A DNA stretch of 64,000 bases from Leisingera sp. ANG1 (GTDB taxonomy: Bacteria > Pseudomonadota > Alphaproteobacteria > Rhodobacterales > Rhodobacteraceae): the NCBI RefSeq assembly GCF_000203975.2, contig NZ_AFCF02000006.1, positions 62,001 to 126,000 on the forward strand, read 5' to 3'. Below, piece after piece: positions 20,359 to 52,819 of this stretch. Made by a program: the position numbers and the translations under genes. The notes under the pieces were generated by a model. That model had not been told where the DNA came from and ran no database searches. It worked only from the letters and a program-made list of their open reading frames with translations. Within the stretch, counting starts at the first letter, position 1; each line of letters opens with the position of its first letter.

Positions 20359-20381
20359 ATGATTGAGGCTGGCGCAATCAT
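20359..20381. promoter_or_regulatory. Second inverted repeat upstream of phnW
   Basis: Arms ATGATTG and CAATCAT are separated by 9 bases, about 30 bases before the phnW start and overlapping an AT-rich stretch that could contain the promoter. LysR regulators often use a second, lower-affinity activation site near the promoter. Confidence 0.45.
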
Positions 20382-20410
20382 GCTCTCGAACCATGCATTG
20401 GAGACAGGCA

Positions 20411-21598
20411 ATGACCGCTTCCGCACCGCAGATTGACCCGCCTTTTCTAGGCGAACCTTACCTCCTGACCCCTGGGCCGCTGACCACATCCTATGAGGTG
20501 AAACAAGCCATGCTGCGGGACTGGGGCAGCTGGGACGACGACTTCCGCGCCATGACCCGCGACATGCGCAGCCGCCTGCTGGCGCTGTTGGGGGAGGGGG
20601 CTGGCGAATATGACTGCGTGCCGATGCAGGGCTCCGGCAGCTTTGCGGTGGAGGCGATGCTGGCGTCCTTTGTGCCGCGGGACGGTAAGGCGCTGGTGCT
20701 GGCCAATGGCGCCTACGGGCTGCGCTCGGCGCAGACGCTGCAATACCTGGGCCGCGCCTATCAGCTGCTGGACAAGGGCGATTACCTGCCACCGCGCGGC
20801 GATGAAGTGGCGCAGATCCTGGCAAATGATCCGTCGATCACCCATGTGGTGGCGATCCACTGCGAAACCTCCTCGGGCATTCTGAACCCGGTGGAGGAGA
20901 TTTCCGAGGCTGTTTACGCCGCGGGCCGCAAGCTGCTGATCGACTCGATGTCAGCGTTTGGCGCCATTGAACTGCAGCCGTCGCAGATCCGCTATGAAGC
21001 GATGGTGTCCTCGGCCAACAAATGCATAGAGGGCGTGCCGGGCTTCGGCTTTGTCATTGCCCGCAAGGCGGAGCTGGAAGCCGCCAGGGGCAACAGCCAT
21101 TCGCTGTCGCTGGATGTGCATGCGCAATGGGCGCATATGGAAAAGACCGGCCAATGGCGGTTCACCCCGCCGACCCATGTGGTTGCGGCTTTCCTTGAGG
21201 CGCTCAAGGCGCATGAGGCTGAAGGCGGCGTCGCGGGGCGCGGCGGCCGCTATACCCGCAACCGCGATGTGATGGTTGCTGGCATGCGCGATCTGGGGTT
21301 CGAGACGCTGCTGCAGAACCGCTGGCTGTCGCCCATCATCGTCACATTCTTTTGCCCTGCGGATGCGAATTTCGTCTTCGACCGCTTCTACGATCTGATG
21401 AAGGAAAAGGGCTTTATCATCTACCCGGGCAAACTGACAGTTGTGGACAGTTTCCGCGTCGGCTGCATTGGGCAGATGGATGAACACGTGATGCGGCAGG
21501 TCGTGTCTGCCGCCAAGGAAACACTTGCCGAAATGGGCGTCGCCAGCGCGGCCCCGCCCGCCGCGGCGCTGGAAGAACGCGCCAAACTGGCTGCCTGA
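20411..21598 (+). CDS. phnW: 2-aminoethylphosphonate:pyruvate transaminase
   Basis: Converts 2-aminoethylphosphonate and pyruvate to phosphonoacetaldehyde and alanine, with PLP. The 395-residue class-V aminotransferase has LLTPGPLTTS and MLRDWGSWDDDF near the N-terminus (a PhnW hallmark), the PLP aspartate D178 (IDSMSAFG) and the Schiff-base lysine K204 (SSANKCIEG). The start is the ATG after GAGACAGGCA rather than an upstream in-frame one, because it gives the family length. First gene of phnW-phnA-phnY. Confidence 0.96.
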   Translation: MTASAPQIDPPFLGEPYLLTPGPLTTSYEVKQAMLRDWGSWDDDFRAMTRDMRSRLLALLGEGAGEYDCVPMQGSGSFAVEAMLASFVPRDGKALVLANGAYGLRSAQTLQYLGRAYQLLDKGDYLPPRGDEVAQILANDPSITHVVAIHCETSSGILNPVEEISEAVYAAGRKLLIDSMSAFGAIELQPSQIRYEAMVSSANKCIEGVPGFGFVIARKAELEAARGNSHSLSLDVHAQWAHMEKTGQWRFTPPTHVVAAFLEALKAHEAEGGVAGRGGRYTRNRDVMVAGMRDLGFETLLQNRWLSPIIVTFFCPADANFVFDRFYDLMKEKGFIIYPGKLTVVDSFRVGCIGQMDEHVMRQVVSAAKETLAEMGVASAAPPAAALEERAKLAA

Positions 21599-21618
21599 GA
21601 CACAAAGGACTTCGACAT

Positions 21619-22863
21619 ATGACCATTCAATCCCCCGTCGTGGCAAACGGCCGCGCCTATGATGTGCCCAAGACCTGCGCGATTGCCATCTGTCTGGACG
21701 GCTGCGAGCCGGAGTATCTGGACAAGGCAATTGCTGACGGTCTGATGCCCACGCTCAAGCGGATGCGCACGGAAGGCACCGACCGGCTGGCGCATTCGGT
21801 GGTGCCCTCGTTCACCAACCCCAACAACCTGTCGATTGCGACAGGCCGTCCGCCGGTGGTGCACGGGATCTGCGGCAACTACCTGATCGACCCGGACACC
21901 GGCGAAGAGGTGATGATGAACGACGTGCGCTTTTTGCGGGCGCCGACGGTGTTCAAGGCGTTCTATGACGCTGGCGCGCGGGTGGCCGTGGTCACTGCCA
22001 AGGACAAGCTGCGGGCGCTCTTGGGGGCAGGCCTGGAGTGCGGCGACGACCGAGCCAAGTGCTTCTCGGCGGAGAAATCCGACACATCGACCGCAGCCGA
22101 GCATGGTCAGGAGAAGGCATCCGAGTGGCTGGGCATGGCGCAGCCCGAGGTCTACTCGGCTGAACTCAGCGAGTTTGTCTTTGCCGCCGGTGTAAAACTG
22201 CTGAAGGAATGGGCGCCGGATGTGATGTATTTGACCACCACCGACTATGTGCAGCACAAGTACAGCCCCGATCAGGCAGAGGCCAAGGCCTTCTATGAGA
22301 TGTTCGACAAGTACCTGACGGAGCTTGACGCGCTGGGCGCTGCCATCGTGGTAACCGCCGACCACGGCATGAAGCCCAAGCACCACGCCGATGGCTCCCC
22401 CAGCGTGATCTATGTGCAGGACCTGATGGACGACTGGCTGGGCGAGGGCCAGGCCCGGGTGATCCTGCCGATCACCGACCCTTATGTGGTGCATCACGGC
22501 GCGCTCGGCTCCTTTGCCACCTGCTACTTGCCAGAGGGCGCGGACCGGGCGGAGATCATGGAGCGGCTCGCGGGTTATGACGCGATTACCGATGTGCTGA
22601 CCCGCGAGGAGGCGGTGGCCCGGTTCGAGCTGCCCGCCGACCGGATCGGCGACATCATTCTGGTGTCCGGCGAGAACATCTGCATCGGCACGTCTGAGCA
22701 CCGCCACGATCTGGCCGCGCTCAATGAACCGCTGCGCAGCCATGGCGGGCTGACCGAACAGGAGGTACCCTTCATCTGCAACCGCGTTCTGCCGCTGCCG
22801 GAGCGCCCGGTGCTGCGCAACTTTGATGCGTTTTTCTATGCCGCGCAGGCGGCGGCGCTGTAA
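21619..22863 (+). CDS. phnA: Phosphonoacetate hydrolase
   Basis: Cleaves the C-P bond of phosphonoacetate to acetate and phosphate with two zinc ions. The 414-residue alkaline-phosphatase-superfamily protein carries the first metal ligand D27 ([10 protein letters not shown]), the nucleophilic threonine T66 (PSFTNPNN) and a later [11 protein letters not shown] ligand block. It lies 20 bases after phnW and an AAGGA ribosome site precedes the ATG. With PhnW and PhnY it completes the aminoethylphosphonate to acetate route. Confidence 0.95.
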
Positions 22864-22880
22864 CCATGAAGGATCAGGCG

Positions 22881-24329
22881 ATGAGCGATACCGAAATCCG
22901 CAACGAGGGCATGCGCATCGGCGGCGAGGTGGTCTTTACCGAGGAAACCGTGCCGGTTCTCTACCCTTATACCAACGAGGTGGTGGGCCATGTGCCGGCC
23001 GGTCAGGCCGAGCACGCCCGCAAGGCGTTTGAGATTGCCGCGAACTATACGCCCAAGCTGACCCGCTATGAGCGCAGTCAGATCCTGCAGCGGGCAGGGG
23101 AGCTGATCGGCGAGAAGCGCGAGTGGCTGGCCAAATGGCTGACGCTGGAGCTGGGCATCTGCCACCAGCACGCGATCTATGAGACCAAGCGCGCCCAGGA
23201 CGTCTATCAGTTTGCCGCGGCCGAGGCGCTGAAGGATGATGGTGAGATCTTCTCCTGCGATCTGACGCACAACGGCAAGGCGCGCAAGATCTTCACCAAG
23301 CGCGAGCCGGTCAAGGCGATCTCGGCGATCACTCCGTTCAACCACCCTTTGAACATGGTGAGCCACAAGATTGCGCCCGCGATTGCGACCAACAACTGCA
23401 TGGTCTGCAAACCGACGGAACTGACGCCGCTGACCTGCATCGCGCTGGCCGATATCCTCTATGAAGCGGGGCTGCCGCCGGAGATGTTCCAGGTGGTCAC
23501 GGGCTGGCCCAAGGACATTGGCGACGAGATGATCACCAATGAAAACATCGACATCATCACCTTCACCGGTGGTGTGCCGGTGGGCAAGATGATTGCCGAA
23601 AAGGGCGTCTACAAGCGCCAGGCGCTGGAACTGGGTGGCAACGATCCGTTGATCGTGCTGAATGATCTGTCCGATGCCGATCTGGAAAAGGCGGCCACCA
23701 TTGCCGTGGCGGGCGCCACCGGCAACTCCGGCCAGCGCTGCACCGCGATCAAGCGCATCCTGGTGCAGGAAAGTGTCGCGGAGCGCTTCGTGCCGCTGGT
23801 TCTGGAAAAAGCCAAGAAGATCAAGTTCGGCGATCCGCAGGATCCCGAGACGGAACTCGGCTGCGTCATCCACGACAAGGCGGCGGAGCTGTTCGAGAAA
23901 CGTGTCTACATGGCCGAGGCCGAGGGGGCCGAGATCCTCTACCACCCTGGCCGCCAGGGCGCGCTGCTGCCGCCGATCGTGGTCGACAAGGTGCCGCACA
24001 ACAGCGAGTTGGTGATGGAGGAGACCTTTGGCCCCATCGTGCCCATCGTCCGGGTGCCGGATGACGACGCTGAGGTGATGCGGATCTCCAACTCCACCGA
24101 GTTCGGGCTGTCGTCGGGTGTCTGCACCAATGATCTGAACCGGGCGATTGCCTATATCAACGGTCTGGACGTGGGCACCTGCAACATCTGGGAGCAGCCC
24201 GGCTACCGGATCGAGATGTCCCCTTTCGGCGGCATCAAGGATTCCGGCAACGGGGTCAAGGAAGGCGTTATTGAGGCGATGAAATTCTTCACCAACGTGA
24301 AGACCTACTCACTCCCCTGGCCGGAATAA
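22881..24329 (+). CDS. phnY: Phosphonoacetaldehyde dehydrogenase
   Basis: NAD-dependent oxidation of phosphonoacetaldehyde to phosphonoacetate. The 482-residue aldehyde dehydrogenase has the catalytic glutamate (ALELGGND, E250) and cysteine ([10 protein letters not shown]287). Two starts are possible; I chose the ATG at [10 protein letters not shown] because AAGGA lies 7 bases before it, whereas the ATG at 22866 has no ribosome site. Position between phnA and a terminator, and the complete W-A-Y set, identify it as PhnY rather than a general aldehyde dehydrogenase. Confidence 0.94.
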
Positions 24330-39562: not shown

Positions 39563-39622
39563 CGCAATCCATTGCCGCTGAAACAGGCGGATGATGCCTG
39601 TAACAACAGACAGGAGCATCCC

Positions 39623-40825
39623 ATGAAAACCTCCGGCGGCTTTGCCACCCGTGCCATCCACCACGCCTATGACCCGCAGGACAACGAAGGCGCGCTGACG
39701 CCGCCGTTGCACCTGACCTCGACCTTCACGTTTGAGACCGCCGAGGCCGGTGGCGAGATGTTCGCAGGCGAACGCCAGGGCCATATCTACAGCCGGATCT
39801 CCAACCCGACCTGCGACTTGCTGGAGCAGCGCATAGCCACGCTGGAAGGCGCCGAGGCGGGCCTAGCGCTCAGCAGCGGCATGGGCGCCATCACTGCGGT
39901 TCTGTGGACACTGCTATCACCCGGTGACGAGGTGATCGTGGACAAGACGCTTTATGGCTGCACCTTTGCCTTCATGCGCCACGGGCTGGCGAAATGGGGC
40001 GTCACCATCACCCATGTGGACATGACCGACATGGAAAATCTGCGCGCAGCAGTGTCGGACAAGACCCGGGTGGTGTATTTCGAGACCCCGGCCAACCCGA
40101 ACATGCGGCTGGTGGACATCGCGGCGGCATCTGAAATCGCCCACGCCGCAGGTGCGCAGGTGGTGGTCGACAACACCTATGCCACCCCTTATCTGACCCG
40201 CCCGCTTGAGCTGGGCGCTGATATCGTGCTGCATTCCGCCACCAAATACCTGGGCGGCCACGGCGATGTGGTGGCGGGCCTTGTCGCGGGCACCGCGGAG
40301 CAGATTGCTGAAATCCGCCTGGTCGGTATGAAAGACATGACCGGCGCAGTGATGGCGCCCTTCAATGCCATGCTGATCCTGCGCGGCCTCAAGACCCTGG
40401 CGCTGCGGATGGACCGCCACTGCGCCTCTGCCGTCACCGTGGCCGATTATCTTGCCGCCCACCCGGCAGTGAAGTCGGTGTCCTTCCCGGGGCACGAGAG
40501 CTTTGCCCAGGCCGATGTGGCCAAGCGCCAGATGGCACAGCCCGGCGCCATGATCGCCTTTGAGGTCGAGGGCGGCCTGCAGGGCGGCATTGCCTTCATG
40601 AACGGTCTGCAGATGATCCAACGGGCGGTATCGCTAGGCGATGCGGAAACCCTGATCCAGCATCCGGCCTCGATGACCCATTCGACCTACACCCCGGAAG
40701 AGCGCGCCGAGCACGGCATCAGCGACGGGCTGATCCGCCTGTCGGTGGGGCTGGAGGATGTGGCCGACATTCTGGCCGATCTGGAACAGGCCTTGCCCGC
40801 CCCCGTGCAGCACGCCGCCGAGTAA
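39623..40825 (+). CDS. megL: Methionine gamma-lyase
   Basis: PLP enzyme splitting methionine to methanethiol, 2-oxobutyrate and ammonia. The 400-residue sequence has the PLP lysine K208 (HSATKYLGGHGD) and the Y111-G-C113-T motif; the cysteine at this place distinguishes methionine gamma-lyase from cystathionine enzymes, where other residues occur. The start at MKTSGGFATR has a CAGGAG ribosome site. The next gene encodes an E1 enzyme that could oxidise the 2-oxobutyrate. Confidence 0.93.
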   Translation: MKTSGGFATRAIHHAYDPQDNEGALTPPLHLTSTFTFETAEAGGEMFAGERQGHIYSRISNPTCDLLEQRIATLEGAEAGLALSSGMGAITAVLWTLLSPGDEVIVDKTLYGCTFAFMRHGLAKWGVTITHVDMTDMENLRAAVSDKTRVVYFETPANPNMRLVDIAAASEIAHAAGAQVVVDNTYATPYLTRPLELGADIVLHSATKYLGGHGDVVAGLVAGTAEQIAEIRLVGMKDMTGAVMAPFNAMLILRGLKTLALRMDRHCASAVTVADYLAAHPAVKSVSFPGHESFAQADVAKRQMAQPGAMIAFEVEGGLQGGIAFMNGLQMIQRAVSLGDAETLIQHPASMTHSTYTPEERAEHGISDGLIRLSVGLEDVADILADLEQALPAPVQHAAE

Positions 40826-40835
40826 GGAGAGAGCC

Positions 40836-43220
40836 ATGCGCCCCGATCTGACCCACCTCAAGACCATCGAACAGCGGCTCTTGTGGCTGTCGCATTGGAT
40901 GATCCACAACGCGAACCACATCCGCCCCAAGGCGGACGGGATCAAGATCGGGGGGCACCAGGCCTCTTCGGCGTCGATGGTGTCGATCATGACGGCGCTT
41001 TATTTCTCGGCGCTGAAACCGGGCGACCGGGTGGCGGTGAAACCGCATGCCTCGCCCGTCTTTCACGCGATGCAGTACCTGATGGGCAATCAGACGCGCG
41101 AGAAAATGGAGAACTTCCGCGGCTTCGGCGGTGTGCAAAGCTATCCCAGCCGCACCAAGGACGTGGATGACGTGGATTTTTCCACCGGCTCTGTCGGGCT
41201 GGGTGTCGGGATCACCGCGCTGGCCTCCATGGTGCAGGACTTCATCACCGCCAAGGACTGGGGCAAGGATGCCCGCACCGGCCGCATGGTGGCACTGGCG
41301 GGCGATGCAGAACTGGACGAGGGCAACATCTACGAAGTGCTGCAGGAGGGCTGGAAGAACGATCTGCGCAACACCTGGTGGATCATCGACTACAACCGCC
41401 AGTCGCTGGACGGCATTGTCCGCGAAGGCCTGTTCGAGCGGATCGAGAAGATCTTTGACGCCTTCGGCTGGGACGTGGTGCGGGTGAAATACGGCGCCCT
41501 GCAGCGGACCGCGTTCGAGGAGCCGGGCGGCGAAGCTTTGCGCGCCTGGATCGACGCCTGCCCGAACCAGCAGTATTCCGCGCTCACCTACATGGGCGGC
41601 GCGGTTTGGCGGCAGCACCTGATGGATGATCTGGGCGACCAGGGCGATGTCAGCGCGCTGATTGAGAAACGCAGCGATGATGAGCTGGCGGAGCTGATGG
41701 AAAACCTCGGCGGCAACTGCGTCGAGACGATGGCGGATGTGTTCGCTTCCATCACCCACGACCGCCCGGTCTGCTTCCTGGCCTATACGGTCAAGGGCTG
41801 GGGTACGCCGATTGCCGGCCACAAGGACAACCACGGCGGCCTGATGACCAAGGCCCAGATGACGGACTGGCAGGCCCATATGGGCGTCGCCGCAGGGGAG
41901 GAGTGGGAGCCCTTCGCCACCGTCGCCGACCCCGCCGCGCTGCAAGGCTTTCTTCGCCAGGTGCCGTTCTTTGCCGAAGGCCCGCGCCGCCATTTCGACG
42001 CGCCGCTGCCGGTGCCCGCGATTGCCATCGACACCTCCCGCGAAATCTCCACCCAGATGGCGTTCGGCAAGATCCTTGATGATCTGTCCAAGGGGGACAG
42101 CGAACTGGCGGCTCGGATCCTCACCACCTCGCCCGATGTGACCGGCACCACCGGGCTGGGGCCGTGGGTCAACCGGCGCAAGCTGTTTGCCCGTGAGGTG
42201 CAGCAGGACGCCTTCATCGAGCACCGCATCCCCTCCACCGCGAAGTGGAACTTTGCTCCCGAGGGCCAGCACCTGGAGTTGGGCATCGCAGAGATGAACC
42301 TGTTCCTGCTGCTGGGCGCCGCAGGGCTGTCGCATTCGCTGTTCGGCAAGCGGGTGATCCCCATCGGCACGGTTTACGACCCCTTTGTCTGCCGCGGTCT
42401 CGATGCGCTGAACTATGCCTGCTATCAGGATGCGCGTTTCATGATCGTCGGCACCCCCTCCGGGGTGACGCTGGCGCCCGAAGGCGGCGCGCATCAGTCC
42501 ATCGGCACGCCGCTCATCGGGATGTCACAGGACGGGCTGGCGTCGTTTGAGCCTTCTTTTGCCGATGAACTGGCGGTGATCATGGAATGGGCCTTCGACT
42601 ACCTGCAGCGCGACGGCGAGGGCGATCCGGATGAGCGCACCTGGCTGCGCGACGAGACCGGCGGCTCGGTCTACCTGCGCCTCACCACCAGCCCGATGGA
42701 GCAGCCCGGAAAGCGCGCCGACGAGGACTTCCGCCAGGGCGCCATCGACGGCGGCTACTGGCTGCGCAAGCCGGGGCCAAACTGCGATGTTGTAATTGCC
42801 TATCAGGGCGCAGTGGCGCCGGAGGCGATCAAGGCCGCGGGCATCATCGGCGAAAGCCGCCGCGACGTGGGCGTGCTGGCGGTGACCTCTGCCGACCGGC
42901 TGAATGCGGGCTGGACCGCGGCGCAGCGGGCGCGCTCGCGCGGCAACGCCGCCGCCAGGTCCCATATTGAGACGCTGATGCAGGACCTGCCGCCGCACTG
43001 CAAGGTGATCACCGTGATTGACGGCCACCCGGCGACGCTGGCCTGGCTGGGCGGGGTTGCGGGCCACCAGACCGTGCCCCTGGGTGTGGAGCATTTCGGC
43101 CAGACCGGCACCATCGGCGATCTCTACCGCCACCACGGGCTGGACGCTGCCGCCATCGTGGCCAAGGTGAACGGCCTGACCGCCGGCAAACGGGTCAGCA
43201 ACGCCGTGCCGGCCGGGTAA
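40836..43220 (+). CDS. AceE-like thiamine-diphosphate E1 enzyme, probable 2-oxobutyrate dehydrogenase (MdeB-like)
   Basis: A 794-residue homodimeric-type 2-oxoacid dehydrogenase E1, related to AceE and transketolase. The thiamine-diphosphate motif GDAELDEG is at 156-163, ending in DYNRQSLDG, and a transketolase-like pyrimidine domain and C-terminal domain follow. In P. putida mdeB encodes an E1 homologue that decarboxylates 2-oxobutyrate from methionine gamma-lyase; the lrp-megL-E1 order here is the same. It begins 10 bases after megL. No E2 or E3 gene is adjacent, so it must borrow them or act as a decarboxylase. Confidence 0.85.
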   Translation: MRPDLTHLKTIEQRLLWLSHWMIHNANHIRPKADGIKIGGHQASSASMVSIMTALYFSALKPGDRVAVKPHASPVFHAMQYLMGNQTREKMENFRGFGGVQSYPSRTKDVDDVDFSTGSVGLGVGITALASMVQDFITAKDWGKDARTGRMVALAGDAELDEGNIYEVLQEGWKNDLRNTWWIIDYNRQSLDGIVREGLFERIEKIFDAFGWDVVRVKYGALQRTAFEEPGGEALRAWIDACPNQQYSALTYMGGAVWRQHLMDDLGDQGDVSALIEKRSDDELAELMENLGGNCVETMADVFASITHDRPVCFLAYTVKGWGTPIAGHKDNHGGLMTKAQMTDWQAHMGVAAGEEWEPFATVADPAALQGFLRQVPFFAEGPRRHFDAPLPVPAIAIDTSREISTQMAFGKILDDLSKGDSELAARILTTSPDVTGTTGLGPWVNRRKLFAREVQQDAFIEHRIPSTAKWNFAPEGQHLELGIAEMNLFLLLGAAGLSHSLFGKRVIPIGTVYDPFVCRGLDALNYACYQDARFMIVGTPSGVTLAPEGGAHQSIGTPLIGMSQDGLASFEPSFADELAVIMEWAFDYLQRDGEGDPDERTWLRDETGGSVYLRLTTSPMEQPGKRADEDFRQGAIDGGYWLRKPGPNCDVVIAYQGAVAPEAIKAAGIIGESRRDVGVLAVTSADRLNAGWTAAQRARSRGNAAARSHIETLMQDLPPHCKVITVIDGHPATLAWLGGVAGHQTVPLGVEHFGQTGTIGDLYRHHGLDAAAIVAKVNGLTAGKRVSNAVPAG

Positions 43221-45727: not shown

Positions 45728-45750
45728 GATAGTTGACATTGTCAATTATC
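45728..45750. promoter_or_regulatory. MarR-type operator abutting the marR start codon
   Basis: A 23-base palindrome with arms GATAGTTGACA and TGTCAATTATC around a single T, matching at 10 of 11 positions, ends exactly at the base before the ATG. It contains a TTGACA box. No ribosome-binding site fits between, so the transcript may be leaderless, and binding here would block transcription. Confidence 0.75.
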
Positions 45751-46203
45751 ATGACCCAGACACGCTTTCACCTGCATCACTCCCTTGGCTACCAGATCAC
45801 CATGCTGGCGCGTGTGATCGAACGCCGCTTTGAACAGCGCATCGCGGAACACGGGCTGACACGCGTGACTTGGTGCGTGCTGCTGGCTGCAGGGGAGGAG
45901 GGACTGGCAACGCCTTCGGAGATTGCGGATTTCATCGGCATCGACCGCACCGCCACCTCCCGCGCCTTGCGGCAGATGGAGGCGGGCGGGCTGATCACCC
46001 GCCGCAGCGGAGAGGGCGACGGGCGCTCGATCCGGGTGATGCTGACCGCGGCAGGCCAGTCGGCGTTGCAGGCGGTGCTGCCCATCGCGCAGGAGAACGC
46101 CGCGCATTTCGAGGCCAAGCTGAGCGGCGAAGAGCTTTCCGAGCTGCGCCAGTCCGCCGTCAAGCTGCTGCAGGACGAGCCGCGCATCGTCGCCAAGCTG
46201 TAA
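45751..46203 (+). CDS. MarR family regulator of the dehalogenase gene
   Basis: A 150-residue winged-helix regulator with the MarR plan: SLGYQITMLARVIERRFEQ dimer helix, a recognition helix in ADFIGIDRTATSRALRQM, and the wing ITRRSGEGDGRS. MarR proteins usually release DNA on binding an aromatic ligand. An upstream in-frame TTG at 45733 lies inside the operator and is rejected. rdhA starts 16 bases after its stop, so both form one operon, and several reductive dehalogenase genes are controlled by MarR proteins. Confidence 0.92.
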   Translation: MTQTRFHLHHSLGYQITMLARVIERRFEQRIAEHGLTRVTWCVLLAAGEEGLATPSEIADFIGIDRTATSRALRQMEAGGLITRRSGEGDGRSIRVMLTAAGQSALQAVLPIAQENAAHFEAKLSGEELSELRQSAVKLLQDEPRIVAKL

Positions 46204-46219: not shown

Positions 46220-49200
46220 ATGGGCAAACTGTTTTCCTACCGCAACCGGCCCGTGCACCTGGGGCCGTACCCGATGGAGACCCTGAACCGGCAGGCCGGG
46301 CCGGAAGGGCTGGACGCGCTGCCGCCACAGGAGCAGGTCAGTTTCCGCCGCCCCGATGCACCGCTCTCCCTCGTCAATGCGATGCGCGACTACCAGGCGA
46401 TGCTGGACGCCACCCGCGAAGGACTGGTGAAAAAGGAACGCGCAGAAATCCCTTCGGACCCGCAGGAGCGCACCGATCATCTGAAGGCTTTCGGCTACTT
46501 CTGCGACGCCTCTCTGGCCGGTGCCTGCGCGGTGCCTTCCGGCGCCTGGCTGGAGGCGCCGCTGGTGAACCCGGATGTGGCGGCGCTTTCGGAAACCCTG
46601 CGCAGCAAGCAGACCAAAACCTTCGCCTCCGGCATCGACGTGGTGATGGCTTCCTTGCGCGAGGCGATGCAGGCCCCGCCCGCGGACTGCCGCCACCACA
46701 CGCATGCGCTGGTCTGCATCTACGAGTTCCCGCGTGATCCTGAAGCCGGTGAAGACGGCACCGGCTGGCTGGCGGATGCACAGGATCAGCGCGCCTGCTT
46801 GCGGGCGGCGGAAACCGTGGTGACGCTGGCCAATTACATCCGCCTGCTGGGGTGGGAGGCGCGCGCGCATACCGGTGCCGCCAGTGATGTGCATCTGGGC
46901 CAGCTGGCGGTGCAGGCGGGGCTTGCCACCTGCGAGGATGGCGTGCTGACAAACCCGTTCCTTGGCAATCGCTTCGGCATCGCCGCCGTCACCACCACCC
47001 TGGAACTGGCCGCCGATCTGCCGCTGGTGCCGGGGCAGGCGCCGGGCCTCAAATACCGGCTGGGCCTTGGTAGCCACGCCAAAAGCGCTGCCAGCCGCGA
47101 CCCCTATGCCAAGCGCCGCTTCATGGACGGCCCGCACCCGTTCGAGACCCTGAAGCGGGTGGCTGACCCCACCACCTATATTGACGAGGTGAACGTGGCG
47201 CGCGTGCCAAAGCGCGCCGACATGTTCGCACGCTCCCTGTTCGGCGACCTTGGCAAAGGCCCGCAGGAAGCGGCGAAGAACGGCAATTACGTCCGCAAGT
47301 CCTCCTCCGCCTTTGCCTTCCGATCCTCGCTTGCGGCCTTCGTGCTGCTGCAGGACGGCGAGCCCGCGCCGCAGGTTGACCCCAGCGCCGCCGATGCTGA
47401 ACGCAACGCCGCCAACATCAAGGCTGCGGCCTATTTCCTCGGTTGCGACGCTGTGGGGATCTCACGCTGCCCTGACTGGGCCTACTACTCCCACGACGCT
47501 GCAGGCGAACCACTGGCCCCCTACCACGAAAACGCCATCAGCATCATCATCGACCAAGGCCATGAGACGATGGAGGGCGCCTCCGGCGACGACTGGATCG
47601 CCTGCGCCCAGTCGATGCGCGCCTACCTGCGGTTTTCGCTGCTGGGCGGGGTGATCGCGCAACAAATCCGCAACCTCGGCTATACCGCCCGGGTGCATTC
47701 GGTGATGGACGGCGAGGTGCTGCAGCCGCCGCTGTTGCTGCTGTCCGGCCTTGGCGAGGTCTCCCGCATCGGCGAGGTGATCCTGAACCCCTTCCTCGGC
47801 CCCCGCCTGAAATCCGGTGCCGTGACCACCAATCTGCCCATGACCCATGACAAACCTGTCGACTTCGGCCTGCAGCGCTTCTGCGAGGCCTGCAACAAAT
47901 GCGCCCGCGAATGCCCTTCCGGCGCTATCACTGCGGGCCCTAAGCTGATGTTCAACGGCTACGAGATCTGGAAATCCGACAGCCAGAAATGCACCACCTA
48001 CCGGGTCACCGTGCCCGGCGGCGCCATGTGCGGCCGCTGCATGAAGACCTGTCCCTGGAACCTGGAGGGCCTGTTTGCCGAGGCGCCGTTCCGCTGGGCC
48101 GCGATGAATGTGCCCGGCAGTGCGCCGCTCTTGGCAAAACTCGACGACGCGCTGGGCAACGGCGAGGTGAACCCGGCCAAGAAATGGTGGTGGGATCTGG
48201 AGATGGTGGAAGAGGGGCCTTATTCCCCTTCGCAGCATCCGGTGAATGCCCGCAAGCTCTCCAAAAATCTGGACTTGAAGTTCGAGGATCAGACCCTGGC
48301 GGTCTATCCCGCACCGCTGGCGCCGCCGCCCTATGCCTGGCCCGCCCCGATGGACCGAGAGGCCGGGATCGCGGCTTATCAGGCGATGATACCCGCAGCG
48401 GAGCACAAGCGCCGCCGCGCGCAGGGCCTGCCGCCGGAGCATGTCTATTCTGCCGATCAGGGTGCTGCGCCGGTCATGCGGGTGCGTCTGTCGAAGGTCG
48501 AGCACGTGACGGAGGCCGTCACCAAGTATGAGTTCTCCCTCCCGGACGGTTCTCTGCTGCCGCCTGCAACAGCCGGTGCCCATATCGACGTGGTCGTCGC
48601 GCCGGAGTTCTTCCGCCAGTACTCGCTGTCGGGCGACCCGGCGGACCGCTCGAAATACCAGATCGCAGTGCTGCGCGAGGATCAGGGCCGCGGCGGTTCC
48701 AAGCTGATGCACCGCATCTTCGAGGAGGGGCGCATGGTCTTCATCTCCAAGCCGATCAACCACTTCCGGCTGGTGGAGGATGCCGCCAAATCCTACCTGA
48801 TGGGGGGCGGTATCGGGGTGACGCCGATGATCGCCATGGCCCACCGCCTGCACGCGCTGGGGCGGAATTTCGAATTCCGCTATTCCTGTTCGAAAATGAC
48901 GAATGCCGGCTTCCTGCAAGACCTGCAGAACTTCCCTTGGGCAGACAAAGTGCATCTGCATTTCTCCGATCAGGGCACCCGCGCAGACCTGAACGAAGTG
49001 CTGCAATACGTGCCCGGCAGCCACGTCTATGCCTGCGGGCCGGAGGTCTATATGCAGGCGGTGCTGGAGGCGGCAGAAGCCAATGGCTTCCCGGAAGAGG
49101 CCCGCCATATGGAATACTTCTCGGTTCCCGAACAGCCCGAATACGAAAACCATCCCTTCACTCTGAAGCTTGCTAAATCAGGCCGGGAAATCCTGGTTCC

Positions 49201-49417
49201 GGCAGAGCAGACTGCCACAGAAGCGCTGGCAGACAGCGGCATCCACGTGGATGTGAAATGCTCTGACGGTATCTGCGGCGTCTGCAAGTGCGGGCTGATC
49301 TCCGGCGACGCCGAGCACCGCGACTTTGTGCTGTCGAATAAGCAGCGCGAGGGCGCCATCATCCTGTGCCAGTCCCGGGCGCAGGCGCCGGACGGGGTGC
49401 TGGAAATCGATCTCTGA
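46220..49417 (+). CDS. rdhA: Self-sufficient cobalamin-dependent reductive dehalogenase fused to a flavin/2Fe-2S reductase
   Basis: A 1065-residue cytoplasmic fusion. Residues 1-545 form the dehalogenase core, with 4Fe-4S motifs CEACNKCARECP (C555-C565) and CTTYRVTVPGGAMCGRCMKTCP (from C591; cysteine ligands 591, 604, 607, 611). Residues 750-965 are a phthalate-dioxygenase-reductase-like domain: flavin site RQYSLSG (799-805), nucleotide site GGGIGVTPM (862-870). Residues 975-1065 are a 2Fe-2S ferredoxin with C1014, C1019, C1022 and C1050. There is no Tat signal, and no rdhB or corrinoid genes lie nearby. This is the plan of the aerobic, NAD(P)H-driven catabolic dehalogenases such as BhbA. Halophenol-type substrates are likely but not shown. 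Confidence 0.9.
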   Translation: MGKLFSYRNRPVHLGPYPMETLNRQAGPEGLDALPPQEQVSFRRPDAPLSLVNAMRDYQAMLDATREGLVKKERAEIPSDPQERTDHLKAFGYFCDASLAGACAVPSGAWLEAPLVNPDVAALSETLRSKQTKTFASGIDVVMASLREAMQAPPADCRHHTHALVCIYEFPRDPEAGEDGTGWLADAQDQRACLRAAETVVTLANYIRLLGWEARAHTGAASDVHLGQLAVQAGLATCEDGVLTNPFLGNRFGIAAVTTTLELAADLPLVPGQAPGLKYRLGLGSHAKSAASRDPYAKRRFMDGPHPFETLKRVADPTTYIDEVNVARVPKRADMFARSLFGDLGKGPQEAAKNGNYVRKSSSAFAFRSSLAAFVLLQDGEPAPQVDPSAADAERNAANIKAAAYFLGCDAVGISRCPDWAYYSHDAAGEPLAPYHENAISIIIDQGHETMEGASGDDWIACAQSMRAYLRFSLLGGVIAQQIRNLGYTARVHSVMDGEVLQPPLLLLSGLGEVSRIGEVILNPFLGPRLKSGAVTTNLPMTHDKPVDFGLQRFCEACNKCARECPSGAITAGPKLMFNGYEIWKSDSQKCTTYRVTVPGGAMCGRCMKTCPWNLEGLFAEAPFRWAAMNVPGSAPLLAKLDDALGNGEVNPAKKWWWDLEMVEEGPYSPSQHPVNARKLSKNLDLKFEDQTLAVYPAPLAPPPYAWPAPMDREAGIAAYQAMIPAAEHKRRRAQGLPPEHVYSADQGAAPVMRVRLSKVEHVTEAVTKYEFSLPDGSLLPPATAGAHIDVVVAPEFFRQYSLSGDPADRSKYQIAVLREDQGRGGSKLMHRIFEEGRMVFISKPINHFRLVEDAAKSYLMGGGIGVTPMIAMAHRLHALGRNFEFRYSCSKMTNAGFLQDLQNFPWADKVHLHFSDQGTRADLNEVLQYVPGSHVYACGPEVYMQAVLEAAEANGFPEEARHMEYFSVPEQPEYENHPFTLKLAKSGREILVPAEQTATEALADSGIHVDVKCSDGICGVCKCGLISGDAEHRDFVLSNKQREGAIILCQSRAQAPDGVLEIDL

Positions 49418-49509: not shown

Positions 49510-49902
49510 TCAGTACGCTTGCCGCTCTCCCAGCAAATAGCGCGCTGCATCCGCGTAATCGAATACCAGCGAGACCACGATCACCGCGCACACCGTCAGA
49601 ATGATCCGCCGCGGCCAGACGGGCATATCCGGGCGCGCCTGCTGGCGCCACAGCCAGACCACGAGTGGCGTCCACAGGATCACATGCGGCACCCCCAAAA
49701 GCCGCACATATCCCAGCTGCCCGTAGATCCAGTAGACTCCACCAGCCGCCAGCACACTGGCTGCCACGGTCACCAGACCGGCGATCCGGCTGGGCTTCCA
49801 GATCAGCAGTGCCAGCGGCAGCACAAAGGCACCCAGAAACAGGATGTTGACCCAGACCTGCACCCACAGCGGCTGGGTTGCAATTGCCTCTTCCAGTGTC
49901 AT
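49510..49902 (-). CDS. Small four-helix membrane protein of unknown function
   Basis: A 130-residue protein with four predicted membrane helices (about residues 12-33, 41-60, 68-87 and 100-118) and short loops. No domain or motif is recognised. It lies 53 bases downstream of the sulfatase gene on the same strand and convergent with rdhA, so it may share the sulfatase transcript. Confidence 0.7.
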   Translation of the reverse strand: MTLEEAIATQPLWVQVWVNILFLGAFVLPLALLIWKPSRIAGLVTVAASVLAAGGVYWIYGQLGYVRLLGVPHVILWTPLVVWLWRQQARPDMPVWPRRIILTVCAVIVVSLVFDYADAARYLLGERQAY

Positions 49903-49955: not shown

Positions 49956-51422
49956 CTACAATGGAGAGCCTTCGCGCATCTTGTCCTGCTCCGAAGGAGT
50001 CGGCGTATGGTTGAAGACATAGGCGGTGCGGCAGGCCTCCTCACCGCCCAGTTCCTCGATCCTGCGGCGCTGATCGGCAAAGGCGCGGGCGTTCACCTCC
50101 TCCGGGTCGCAAATTGCGTGCAGCCGCCGTTCGCCTTCGCTAAGCGCCGCCCTGATTTCTGGGTCATTCGCCCCGTCCATCGCCCGGTTCACGAGTTCAT
50201 GCGGGTCGCCTTCCAGATCGAACAACTGCGGCTGTACCCCGGCGTAGTAGACGTACTTCCACTTACCCCAGCGCACCATGAAGGCGCCGGTTTTCGAGCC
50301 GCCGTCGTGGTATTCGCTAAAGCCGGTGCGGCTCTCGTCATAGGGGGCATTGGCAATCGCGCGCAGCGACACGCCCGGCAGCTCCGCATCCTCCGCCACG
50401 CCGCAAACCTCGCGCGCGGTGGCGGCGATGTCGGTCAGGCTGGTGCAGGTCGCCACCCTTTGCCCCGCCGGAATCCCCGGCCCGGCGGCGATCATCGGCA
50501 CCCCGGCGGATTGCTCATACATCACCTGCTTGGTCCAGAACCCCTGATCCCCCATCATGTCGCCATGATCCGACACATAGAGGATCACCGTGTTCTCCAG
50601 CTGGCCGCTGGCCTCCAGCGCGCGGATCACCCGGCCCGCGCAATCATCCATAAAGGAGGTGAGCCCGTAATAGGCCGCCTTGGCCTCGCGCATCTTCTGC
50701 TCGTCGAAGTAATCATCGTAGTTGAAGAAACCTGCGATGTTGCGCAGCTCCTCATGCTCCGGCAGCCCTTCGCCATAGCCCACGGGCAGGTCCATCTCTG
50801 CCGGGTCATACAGGCTGTACCACTCCTCTGGGCAGGTGAGGGGGTAATGCGGGCTGACCAAGGACACAAAGGCCGCCCAGGGCTGCTGCTGCCGCTTGGG
50901 ATCCGCCAGCCAGGCCTCCGCCGCCCCGGTGATGGCGAGATCATAGTCGGTATAGGTGCTCGACCCGGTGCCCACATCACCCGCCAGCTCCGCTGCCGAG
51001 TCATAGGGCGGCGGGTTTTCCCGCAGCAGGCCAATCGCCCAGCCGACGCCGCCGACCACATGCATCGGCAGGATTTCCTCGGTAAACCCATTGTCGTCCT
51101 CCGCAGACCGGAAATGCAGCTTGCCGATCGAGACCACCTCGCGGCCCGCCTCCCGCAGTGCGTGCATCCAGCTGCGCGGGGCTCCGGCGTAGGGTGTCGC
51201 GCTGTCCCAGTGGCCGGTCTTGTGCACCCAGTTGCCGGTGGCCAGCGCCGCGCGGGTCGGCACGCACATGGGAGAGGGCGTATAGGCCGCGGTGAACATC
51301 GTGCCGCGCGCCGCCAATGCATCCAGGTTCGGGGTCTTCACGATGGGATGTCCTGCGCAGCCCATCGCATCCTTGCGGTGCTCGTCCGAGATGATCACCA
51401 GTAAGTTCGGTTGCTGCGCCAT
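49956..51422 (-). CDS. Sulfatase (arylsulfatase/choline-sulfatase-like)
   Basis: A 488-residue type-I sulfatase of the alkaline-phosphatase superfamily. The formylglycine signature C53-V-P-T-R57 is intact and the metal aspartate D13 lies in VIISDEH. A later SDHGDMMGDQG block supplies more ligands. Activation would need a formylglycine-generating enzyme, not encoded here. There is no obvious export signal, so it may be cytoplasmic; phosphonate monoester hydrolase activity is an alternative for this superfamily. Confidence 0.9.
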   Translation of the reverse strand: MAQQPNLLVIISDEHRKDAMGCAGHPIVKTPNLDALAARGTMFTAAYTPSPMCVPTRAALATGNWVHKTGHWDSATPYAGAPRSWMHALREAGREVVSIGKLHFRSAEDDNGFTEEILPMHVVGGVGWAIGLLRENPPPYDSAAELAGDVGTGSSTYTDYDLAITGAAEAWLADPKRQQQPWAAFVSLVSPHYPLTCPEEWYSLYDPAEMDLPVGYGEGLPEHEELRNIAGFFNYDDYFDEQKMREAKAAYYGLTSFMDDCAGRVIRALEASGQLENTVILYVSDHGDMMGDQGFWTKQVMYEQSAGVPMIAAGPGIPAGQRVATCTSLTDIAATAREVCGVAEDAELPGVSLRAIANAPYDESRTGFSEYHDGGSKTGAFMVRWGKWKYVYYAGVQPQLFDLEGDPHELVNRAMDGANDPEIRAALSEGERRLHAICDPEEVNARAFADQRRRIEELGGEEACRTAYVFNHTPTPSEQDKMREGSPL

Positions 51423-51601: not shown

Positions 51602-51616
51602 TAATTGGATTCGCAA

Positions 51617-52819
51617 ATGACGAACAACAGACTGCCGGTAACTGTGCTCTCGGGCTTCCTTGGGGCGGGCAAAACCACGCTTTTGAACCACGTCCTGAAC
51701 AACCGCGCGGGCCGCCGGGTTGCGGTGATTGTCAACGACATGAGCGAGGTGAACATCGACGCGGACCTGGTGCGCGGCGGAACGGAACTGTCGCGGCAGG
51801 ATGAGAAGCTGGTGGAAATGACCAACGGCTGCATCTGCTGCACTTTGCGCGACGACTTGCTGCAGGAGGTGCGCCGCCTCGCGGCTGAAGGGCGGTTCGA
51901 CTATCTGCTGATCGAAAGCACCGGCATTGCTGAGCCGCTCCCGGTGGCCGCAACTTTCGATTTCCGGGATGAGCAGGGCGCAAGCCTGTCGGACGTCGCC
52001 CGCCTCGATACCATGGTGACTGTGGTGGATGCGGTGAACCTGCTCAAGGACTTCTCCAGCCATGATTTCCTCAGCGACCGCGGCGAAAGCCTGGGCGCCG
52101 AGGACGACCGCACTCTGGTCAATCTGCTGACCGACCAGATCGAATTTTCCAACGTCATCATCCTGAACAAGGTAACTGAAGCGGGGCCGGCCCAAACAGA
52201 AGCGGCGATGCTGGTGATCAAGGCGCTGAACCCGGATGCCGAGGTGATCCAGACCGACTTCTCCGAGGTGGACGGGGAACGCATCTTCGACACCGGGCGC
52301 TTTGACTTTGACAAGGCCCACGAGCACCCCCTCTGGGCCAAGGAGCTCTACGGGTTTGAGCACCATGTGCCGGAAACCGAGGAATACGGCATCTCCTCCT
52401 TTGTCTACCGCGCCAAACGCCCCTTTGATCCTGCCAAGATCCATGCGCTGCTGAATGGCGACCTGCCCGGTGTGATCCGCGCCAAGGGTCACTTCTGGTT
52501 GGCCACCCGCCCGGAATGGGCCGCTGAATTCTCGCTGGCCGGAGCCATCTCTTCGGTCCGCCCTCTGGGCTTGTGGTGGGCGGCGGTGCCAACGGAACGC
52601 TGGCCCACGCATCCTGAGGCCCGGCGGGAATTCCTGCAGAACTGGGACGAGACCTGGGGCGACCGGCGGCAGGAACTGGTGTTCATCGGTGCAGGCCTCG
52701 ACAAGGAAGCCACCACCGCCCGCCTCGACGCCTGCCTGATGCCGGAACCGGCGAATGGCTTCGACCCGGCCTGGGCCTCCCTGGAGGACCCATTCCCAAG
52801 CTGGCGCCGCAATGGCTGA
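51617..52819 (+). CDS. COG0523 (CobW/ZigA-type) metal-chaperone GTPase
   Basis: A 400-residue G3E-family GTPase with the P-loop GFLGAGKTT (13-21), the metal motif C72-I-C74-C75 (NGCICCTLR), an NKVT-type nucleotide motif and a C-terminal CobW domain ending near the WRRNG tail. The ATG at [10 protein letters not shown] is preferred to a TTG four codons upstream. The Zur-like palindrome suggests it is made in zinc shortage and helps allocate zinc. A cobalt/cobalamin role is possible but no cob genes are near. Confidence 0.87.

Follow-up and report, generated by a model that had tools for sequence, protein, structure and literature searches.

A fused reductive dehalogenase of the self-sufficient subfamily, preceded by a MarR-family gene, in Leisingera sp. 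ANG1

The sequence analysed here, referred to as the window, is a 64,000-nucleotide stretch of the Leisingera sp. ANG1 genome (contig NZ_AFCF02000006.1, positions 62,001 to 126,000). Located on its forward strand, at 46220..49417, is a reading frame, referred to below as rdhA, that extends from an ATG to a stop codon without internal stops and specifies a protein of 1065 amino acids. That protein matches the NCBIfam reductive dehalogenase model TIGR02486 with a score of 199.5 bits, above the cut-off of 160.35. The best sequence match among solved structures was NpRdhA from Nitratireductor pacificus (4ras, E value of 3.1e-159), to which residues 3-105 and 156-734 could be aligned. An apparent 110-residue 'insert' relative to NpRdhA proved to be an artefact, since NpRdhA had been supplied only from residue 108. 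A second alignment to the NpRdhA catalytic core, involving residues 9-269 (25% identity, E value of 4e-20), suggests that this part of the protein (46244..47026, + strand) is a vestigial N-terminal copy of the cobalamin-binding domain.

The remaining domains were identified by Pfam scans and by comparison with solved structures. A 4Fe-4S dicluster (Fer4_7, Fer4_16) was found at residues 555-614 (47882..48061, +), and contains the motif CxxCxxCxxxCP (555-566) as well as C591 with CxxCxxxCP (604-612). Both motifs, in the wording given for the self-sufficient subfamily in the available part of PMC6299228, are thus present in the window protein. Residues 753-1062 (48476..49405, +) match phthalate dioxygenase reductase (2pia, E value of 2.2e-55) and also those P450 fusions among the solved structures that bear a reductase of this kind. 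This flavin/NAD(P)/2Fe-2S module contains the sequences RQYSL (at 799) and GGGIGVTPM (at 862), and its 2Fe-2S domain, Fer2, occupies residues 985-1054 (49172..49381, +). When the N-terminus was read by eye, no signal predictor being used, no twin-arginine motif with a hydrophobic stretch after it, as in a twin-arginine translocation (Tat) signal, was seen, and identification of the protein as a respiratory dehalogenase was rejected on that ground. The initial annotation had described a 1065-residue fusion of a dehalogenase core, two 4Fe-4S clusters, a flavin/NAD(P) reductase and a 2Fe-2S domain, lacking a Tat signal. The fusion is confirmed by the reading frame and by the TIGR02486, Pfam and 2pia matches, and the missing signal by inspection of the N-terminus.

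The residues expected to be catalytic were located by alignment with NpRdhA and with BhbA of Comamonas sp. 7D-2, the roles of the NpRdhA residues being taken from the available parts of PMC7565698 and PMC10463259. Tyr426 (the proton donor in NpRdhA), Lys488 and Arg552 align with Tyr469 (47624..47626, +), Lys531 (47810..47812, +) and Arg595 (48002..48004, +) of the window protein, and NpRdhA S422, M423 and F291 align with S465, M466 and F336. All six of these residues are kept relative to both BhbA and NpRdhA. It is apparent, therefore, that the Tyr/Lys/Arg set is complete. Among the candidates proposed earlier, K531 was correct; Y422/Y423 and R553 were not, the true tyrosine and arginine being Y469 and R595.

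Related stretches of DNA were collected, of which the best 80 of 271 were kept (the 80 loci). Because of that choice they represent the nearest relatives of the window gene rather than a fair sample. The nine nearest, 88-95% identical, comprise eight named Leisingera and one Rhodobacteraceae metagenome-assembled genome (MAG). The window protein was aligned with the products of 79 of these loci; L013 (927 amino acids, broken frame) was excluded. S465, Y469, K531 and R595 are invariant in the resulting 80 rows, as are the eight 4Fe-4S cysteines. One of the five 2Fe-2S cysteines is kept in 80/80 rows and the other four in 79/80, the exception being L074, which ends earlier at a contig edge. Ratios of non-synonymous to synonymous substitution (dN/dS) relative to eight close sequences (L005-L012) were 0.076-0.096 overall, 0.064-0.096 for the first 740 codons and 0.077-0.119 for the remainder, indicating purifying selection.

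Immediately upstream of rdhA is a gene for a MarR-family regulator (45751..46203, +; MarR_2, E value of 4.9e-14), with 16 bp separating its stop codon from the start of rdhA. As listed, the marR frame begins with a TTG at 45733, a codon that falls within a palindrome; the ATG at 45751 is therefore the more probable start. The palindrome, ATAGTTGACATTGTCAATTAT (45729..45749), ends one base before that ATG and is a putative MarR operator. With at most one mismatch allowed, TTGACANTGTCAA occurs at one site in the window, compared with 0.08 expected, and 7 of 100 shuffled sequences contained at least one site; the exact sequence is present once in the window and is single-copy in the genome. A wider MarR regulon was considered and rejected, as the genome contains one exact and two one-mismatch sites, compared with eight sites for a reversed control at the same tolerance. 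By way of precedent, a MarR activator of a 3-bromo-4-hydroxybenzoate operon binds TTGATT-N5-AATCAA, according to the available part of PMC12016517.

Of the 80 loci, 43 have a same-strand MarR homologue within the upstream sequence that was cut out, and in 20 of those 43 a palindrome with at least eight of nine arm matches precedes marR, a level reached by 0-9 of 100 shuffles. The tree calculated with FastTree comprised 81 rows, 80 of which were counted (L041 was excluded, as it had too little upstream sequence). On this tree the MarR label requires 7 changes, whereas shuffled labels required 26.6 on average; none of 500 shuffles was as low. The label is found on both sides of the midpoint. This fits an old pairing with subsequent losses and proves neither gain nor loss.

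Of the 21 genus genomes, 17, its own included, contain a match to the window protein at an E value limit of 1e-100, although one of these (G011) matches over residues 1-911 only. At the level of the family, 123 of 296 sampled genomes match (122 of 295 by genus), including some few in which the match is in pieces only, and at the level of the class 33 of 337. By table reading, 10 of those 33 are full-length (5 outside the family); the matches of the other 23 are confined, at this limit, to the dehalogenase part. Putative bhbA homologues have been reported to be widespread in the Roseobacter clade (PMC13101508), so wide distribution is not in itself new. The description of the gene as a further, uncharacterised member was correct, but understated how common such genes are; the family count points to aerobic dehalogenation as a potential that many of these bacteria share. 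One of the 80 loci, L049, is a MAG titled Pimelobacter (Actinomycetota). Its fused dehalogenase is placed by the tree next to a row from Maritimibacter, and the contig is probably mis-binned.

Taken together, these data make it highly probable that rdhA encodes a cytoplasmic, NAD(P)H-driven and probably oxygen-tolerant reductive dehalogenase of ortho-brominated and ortho-iodinated phenols, belonging to the self-sufficient catabolic subfamily that includes BhbA and the JtRdhA protein of Jhaorihella thermophila. The presence of such a cytoplasmic, self-sufficient enzyme in a roseobacter, as put forward in the initial annotation, is supported by the sequence, by its relatives and by the published definition of the family. 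For cofactors, reaction, substrate, oxygen tolerance and regulation we infer the following scheme. Hydride from NAD(P)H would be delivered to the flavin of the C-terminal module, and electrons would then reach base-off cobalamin singly, by way of the 2Fe-2S cluster and both 4Fe-4S clusters. The halogen of the substrate would bind the cobalt, with Lys531, Arg595 and Ser465 holding the phenol oxygen; Tyr469 would donate a proton, and halide and the dehalogenated phenol would be released. The MarR protein probably acts on the palindrome at its own start, switching the marR-rdhA pair in response to a phenol or halophenol. A product such as 4-hydroxybenzoate could be passed on to PobA, as a pobA gene (4-hydroxybenzoate 3-monooxygenase), above its model cut-off, is located elsewhere in the genome. 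CobN was likewise found above its cut-off, and both genes count in favour of this reading.

Several observations weigh against this interpretation. A predicted structure built from 37 sequences had a mean predicted local distance difference test (pLDDT) score of 72.4 and a predicted template-modelling (pTM) score of 0.70; a fold search with it speaks for the interpretation, returning NpRdhA chains at ranks 1-14, followed by reductases of the phthalate dioxygenase reductase type. Its pLDDT falls below 50 at residues 559-620, however, and since the iron-sulfur part is unreliable the model supports the domains and not their geometry. A MarR gene was not seen upstream in 37 of the 80 loci, 23 of the 43 MarR loci are without a strong palindrome, and the distance between palindrome and marR varies. 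JtRdhA, a characterised enzyme, was compared with the window protein through its published description. Finally, family-library searches, which covered the window from approximately 39.6 to 54.3 kb plus three phosphonate genes, revealed no catabolic or ring-cleavage gene among the nine neighbours examined, unlike the situation in Comamonas and Nitratireductor sp. OM-1, where catabolic genes accompany the fused genes. The earlier statement that no degradation genes lie beside rdhA therefore holds for these nine neighbours, but leaves pobA out of account. Because the genome contains pobA and rdhA has its own MarR regulator, the substrate class is also less open than had been claimed.

The lack of a ring-cleavage gene among the nine examined neighbours of the marR-rdhA unit could mean that the enzyme serves to detoxify halophenols rather than to allow growth on them. 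This is quite possible, although the presence of pobA and the proximity of fused relatives to ring-degradation genes in Comamonas and Nitratireductor sp. OM-1 incline us somewhat the other way. A related question is whether the main substrate is a different one, such as a halogenated derivative of tyrosine, a chlorinated phenol or a polybromophenol from algae, bromohydroxybenzoate being acted on only slightly. Five of the 12 NpRdhA pocket positions compared (M335, A352, Y357, C462 and V495 in the window protein, 352 being near an alignment gap) are unlike those of both NpRdhA and BhbA, another count against the reading favoured here, and the substrate may accordingly differ from theirs; nor was a bromoxynil-type pathway found among the neighbours tested. 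On the other hand, there is no change in the residues holding the phenol oxygen, and JtRdhA accepts many ortho-bromo- and iodophenols and none of the chlorinated ones tested, according to the available part of PMC10463259. A different main substrate is thus possible, but we consider it less likely than not.

Two other explanations are much less probable. A weak match (25.8 bits) to TIGR00276 might indicate a non-dehalogenating class III cobalamin reductase resembling epoxyqueuosine reductase. The cut-off of that model is 200 bits, while the cut-off of TIGR02486 is passed and the dehalogenase Tyr/Lys/Arg set is complete, so that identification as QueG was rejected and this reading is most improbable. 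It could also be argued, from the 4 of 21 genus genomes without a match, the partial match in G011 and the broken frame of L013, that the gene is decaying or non-functional. The intact frame in the window, the retention of catalytic and cluster residues and a dN/dS near 0.08 make decay extremely unlikely. The interpretation of rdhA as encoding a self-sufficient halophenol dehalogenase is therefore preferred. With it, a dehalogenase family that is amenable to biochemistry gains a member in a cultured marine genus, and the correct residues for mutation (Y469, K531 and R595) are identified; the effector of the local regulatory switch could reveal the natural substrate. No published study of this Leisingera gene was found within the limited literature collection searched.

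The genes flanking rdhA differ between the Leisingera group and the other loci. Outside the group five genes recur, and 60 of the 71 loci have one or more of these within the fetched flanks; Pfam names, from one representative each, are HAD hydrolase, response regulator with GGDEF, MttB methyltransferase, DUF3572 and haem-NO-binding protein. Outside the Leisingera group, then, rdhA is often found at a common chromosomal place. The place is a different one in the Leisingera group, where a sulfatase and a 130-amino acid protein are encoded at 7 of 9 loci and a decarboxylase at 5 of 9; the other 71 loci gave no match to any of these three at an E value of 1e-15. In the window, the gene for the 130-amino acid protein (49510-49902, - strand) is the nearest downstream of rdhA and could be assigned to no family of Pfam or NCBIfam, although no search aimed at RdhB, the membrane anchor expected to be encoded next to a respiratory dehalogenase, was made. 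The sulfatase gene (49956-51422, -) is above the Pfam Sulfatase cut-off and below those of the choline-sulfatase and arylsulfatase models; a CVPTR motif was recognised by eye. The decarboxylase neighbour was looked for, with no positive control, in the four genus genomes that have no rdhA, and was matched in none of them. A CobW-family GTPase is encoded at 51605-52819 (+). Its score against the model of the zinc chaperone ZigA (597.2 bits, cut-off 600) greatly exceeds that against CobW (145.9 bits, cut-off 332.1), and it was therefore not counted as support for cobalamin synthesis. Elsewhere in the window, at 20363-24329 (+), are three genes for the use of 2-aminoethylphosphonate: phnW, encoding a transaminase, phnA, encoding phosphonoacetate hydrolase, and phnY, encoding phosphonoacetaldehyde dehydrogenase. 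All three score above the cut-off of an NCBIfam model. At 39572-43220 (+), a methionine gamma-lyase gene (above cut-off) is followed by one for a pyruvate-dehydrogenase-E1-like protein that scores below model cut-offs and is possibly a 2-oxobutyrate dehydrogenase.

The genome contains one further gene above the TIGR02486 cut-off, specifying a short reductive dehalogenase of 390 amino acids (contig C19, near 328 kb; L002:1015-2187) that is 29% identical to the window protein over 343 columns. A LysR-like gene, named by eye, lies 53 bp upstream of it. The short protein was matched in 15 of 20 other genus genomes, one match being limited to residues 2-158 with a stop. Its iron-sulfur motifs lie at positions 283 and 337, as do those of a short Roseobacter sp. 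MED193 protein to which it is 83% identical. Those positions agree with the ones published for Ros_A3X954 of strain MED193 (283-294 and 337-345), a cytoplasmic dehalogenase that debrominates 2,6-dibromophenol and has been reported to be highly oxygen-sensitive (PMC13101508). Both Ros_A3X954 and the window protein derive from roseobacters, but the former is short and unfused, whereas the latter has 1065 residues and a reductase module, and thus differs from the short roseobacter type (approximately 390 amino acids, no such module). Ros_A3X954 was therefore rejected as the orthologue of the window gene, the published positions fitting the short protein and not the fused one. The MED193 genome also contains a fused gene, whose product is 68.7% identical to the window protein.

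Sulfated bromophenols occur in red algae. In a broader and admittedly unlikely scenario, marR-rdhA would be an old, mostly vertically inherited trait of the Rhodobacteraceae, directed at natural marine bromo- and iodophenols and not a response to pollutants; in Leisingera it would be linked to the sulfatase, so that sulfated red-algal bromophenols are desulfated and then debrominated, with the short dehalogenase acting on other congeners.

Comparison with known systems places the window protein among the fused enzymes. NpRdhA (4ras, 6zxu) is 44.9% identical in the core over 577 columns and shares the three catalytic residues, but has no counterpart in the alignment to window residues from about 106 to 155 and, in the available part of PMC10463259, is described as lacking the fused reductase. 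BhbA (WP_015585978.1, as named in the same part of that source; plasmid pBHB, NC_021077.1) has the same full-length architecture and the same Tyr/Lys/Arg set. It is 50.2% identical over the whole length (50.6% over 1059 aligned columns), with identities of 30.7% at residues 1-155, 56.6% at 156-745 and 49.2% at 746-1065. The genetic settings differ, in that bhbA is on a conjugative IncP plasmid and adjoins protocatechuate 4,5-dioxygenase genes, whereas rdhA is paired with marR and no pathway of that kind adjoins it. In Nitratireductor sp. OM-1, the fused gene (50% identical) is near pobA and an extradiol dioxygenase gene. A MarR gene directly precedes the fused gene of Aminobacter sp. SS-2016 (59% identical) and lies beside that of Jannaschia sp. 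M317 on the opposite strand; in Ruegeria sp. TM1040, which also has a fused gene, none of the listed adjoining genes is a MarR gene. In a 30-row tree rooted with NpRdhA, BhbA and the OM-1 protein stand apart from a group of 27 (the window protein, other roseobacters, one Stappiaceae row and Aminobacter), although the NpRdhA outgroup is a very long branch and the root is thus unsure. JtRdhA (WP_104007082), as described in the available part of PMC10463259, resembles the window protein in joining an RdhA to a phthalate-dioxygenase-reductase-like domain without a Tat signal, in its duplicated cobalamin-binding domain and Tyr/Lys/Arg set, and in its marine host; it debrominates and deiodinates ortho-halophenols using NADPH, also in air. 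The conclusion that the window protein is an uncharacterised member of a known, characterised subfamily is well supported.

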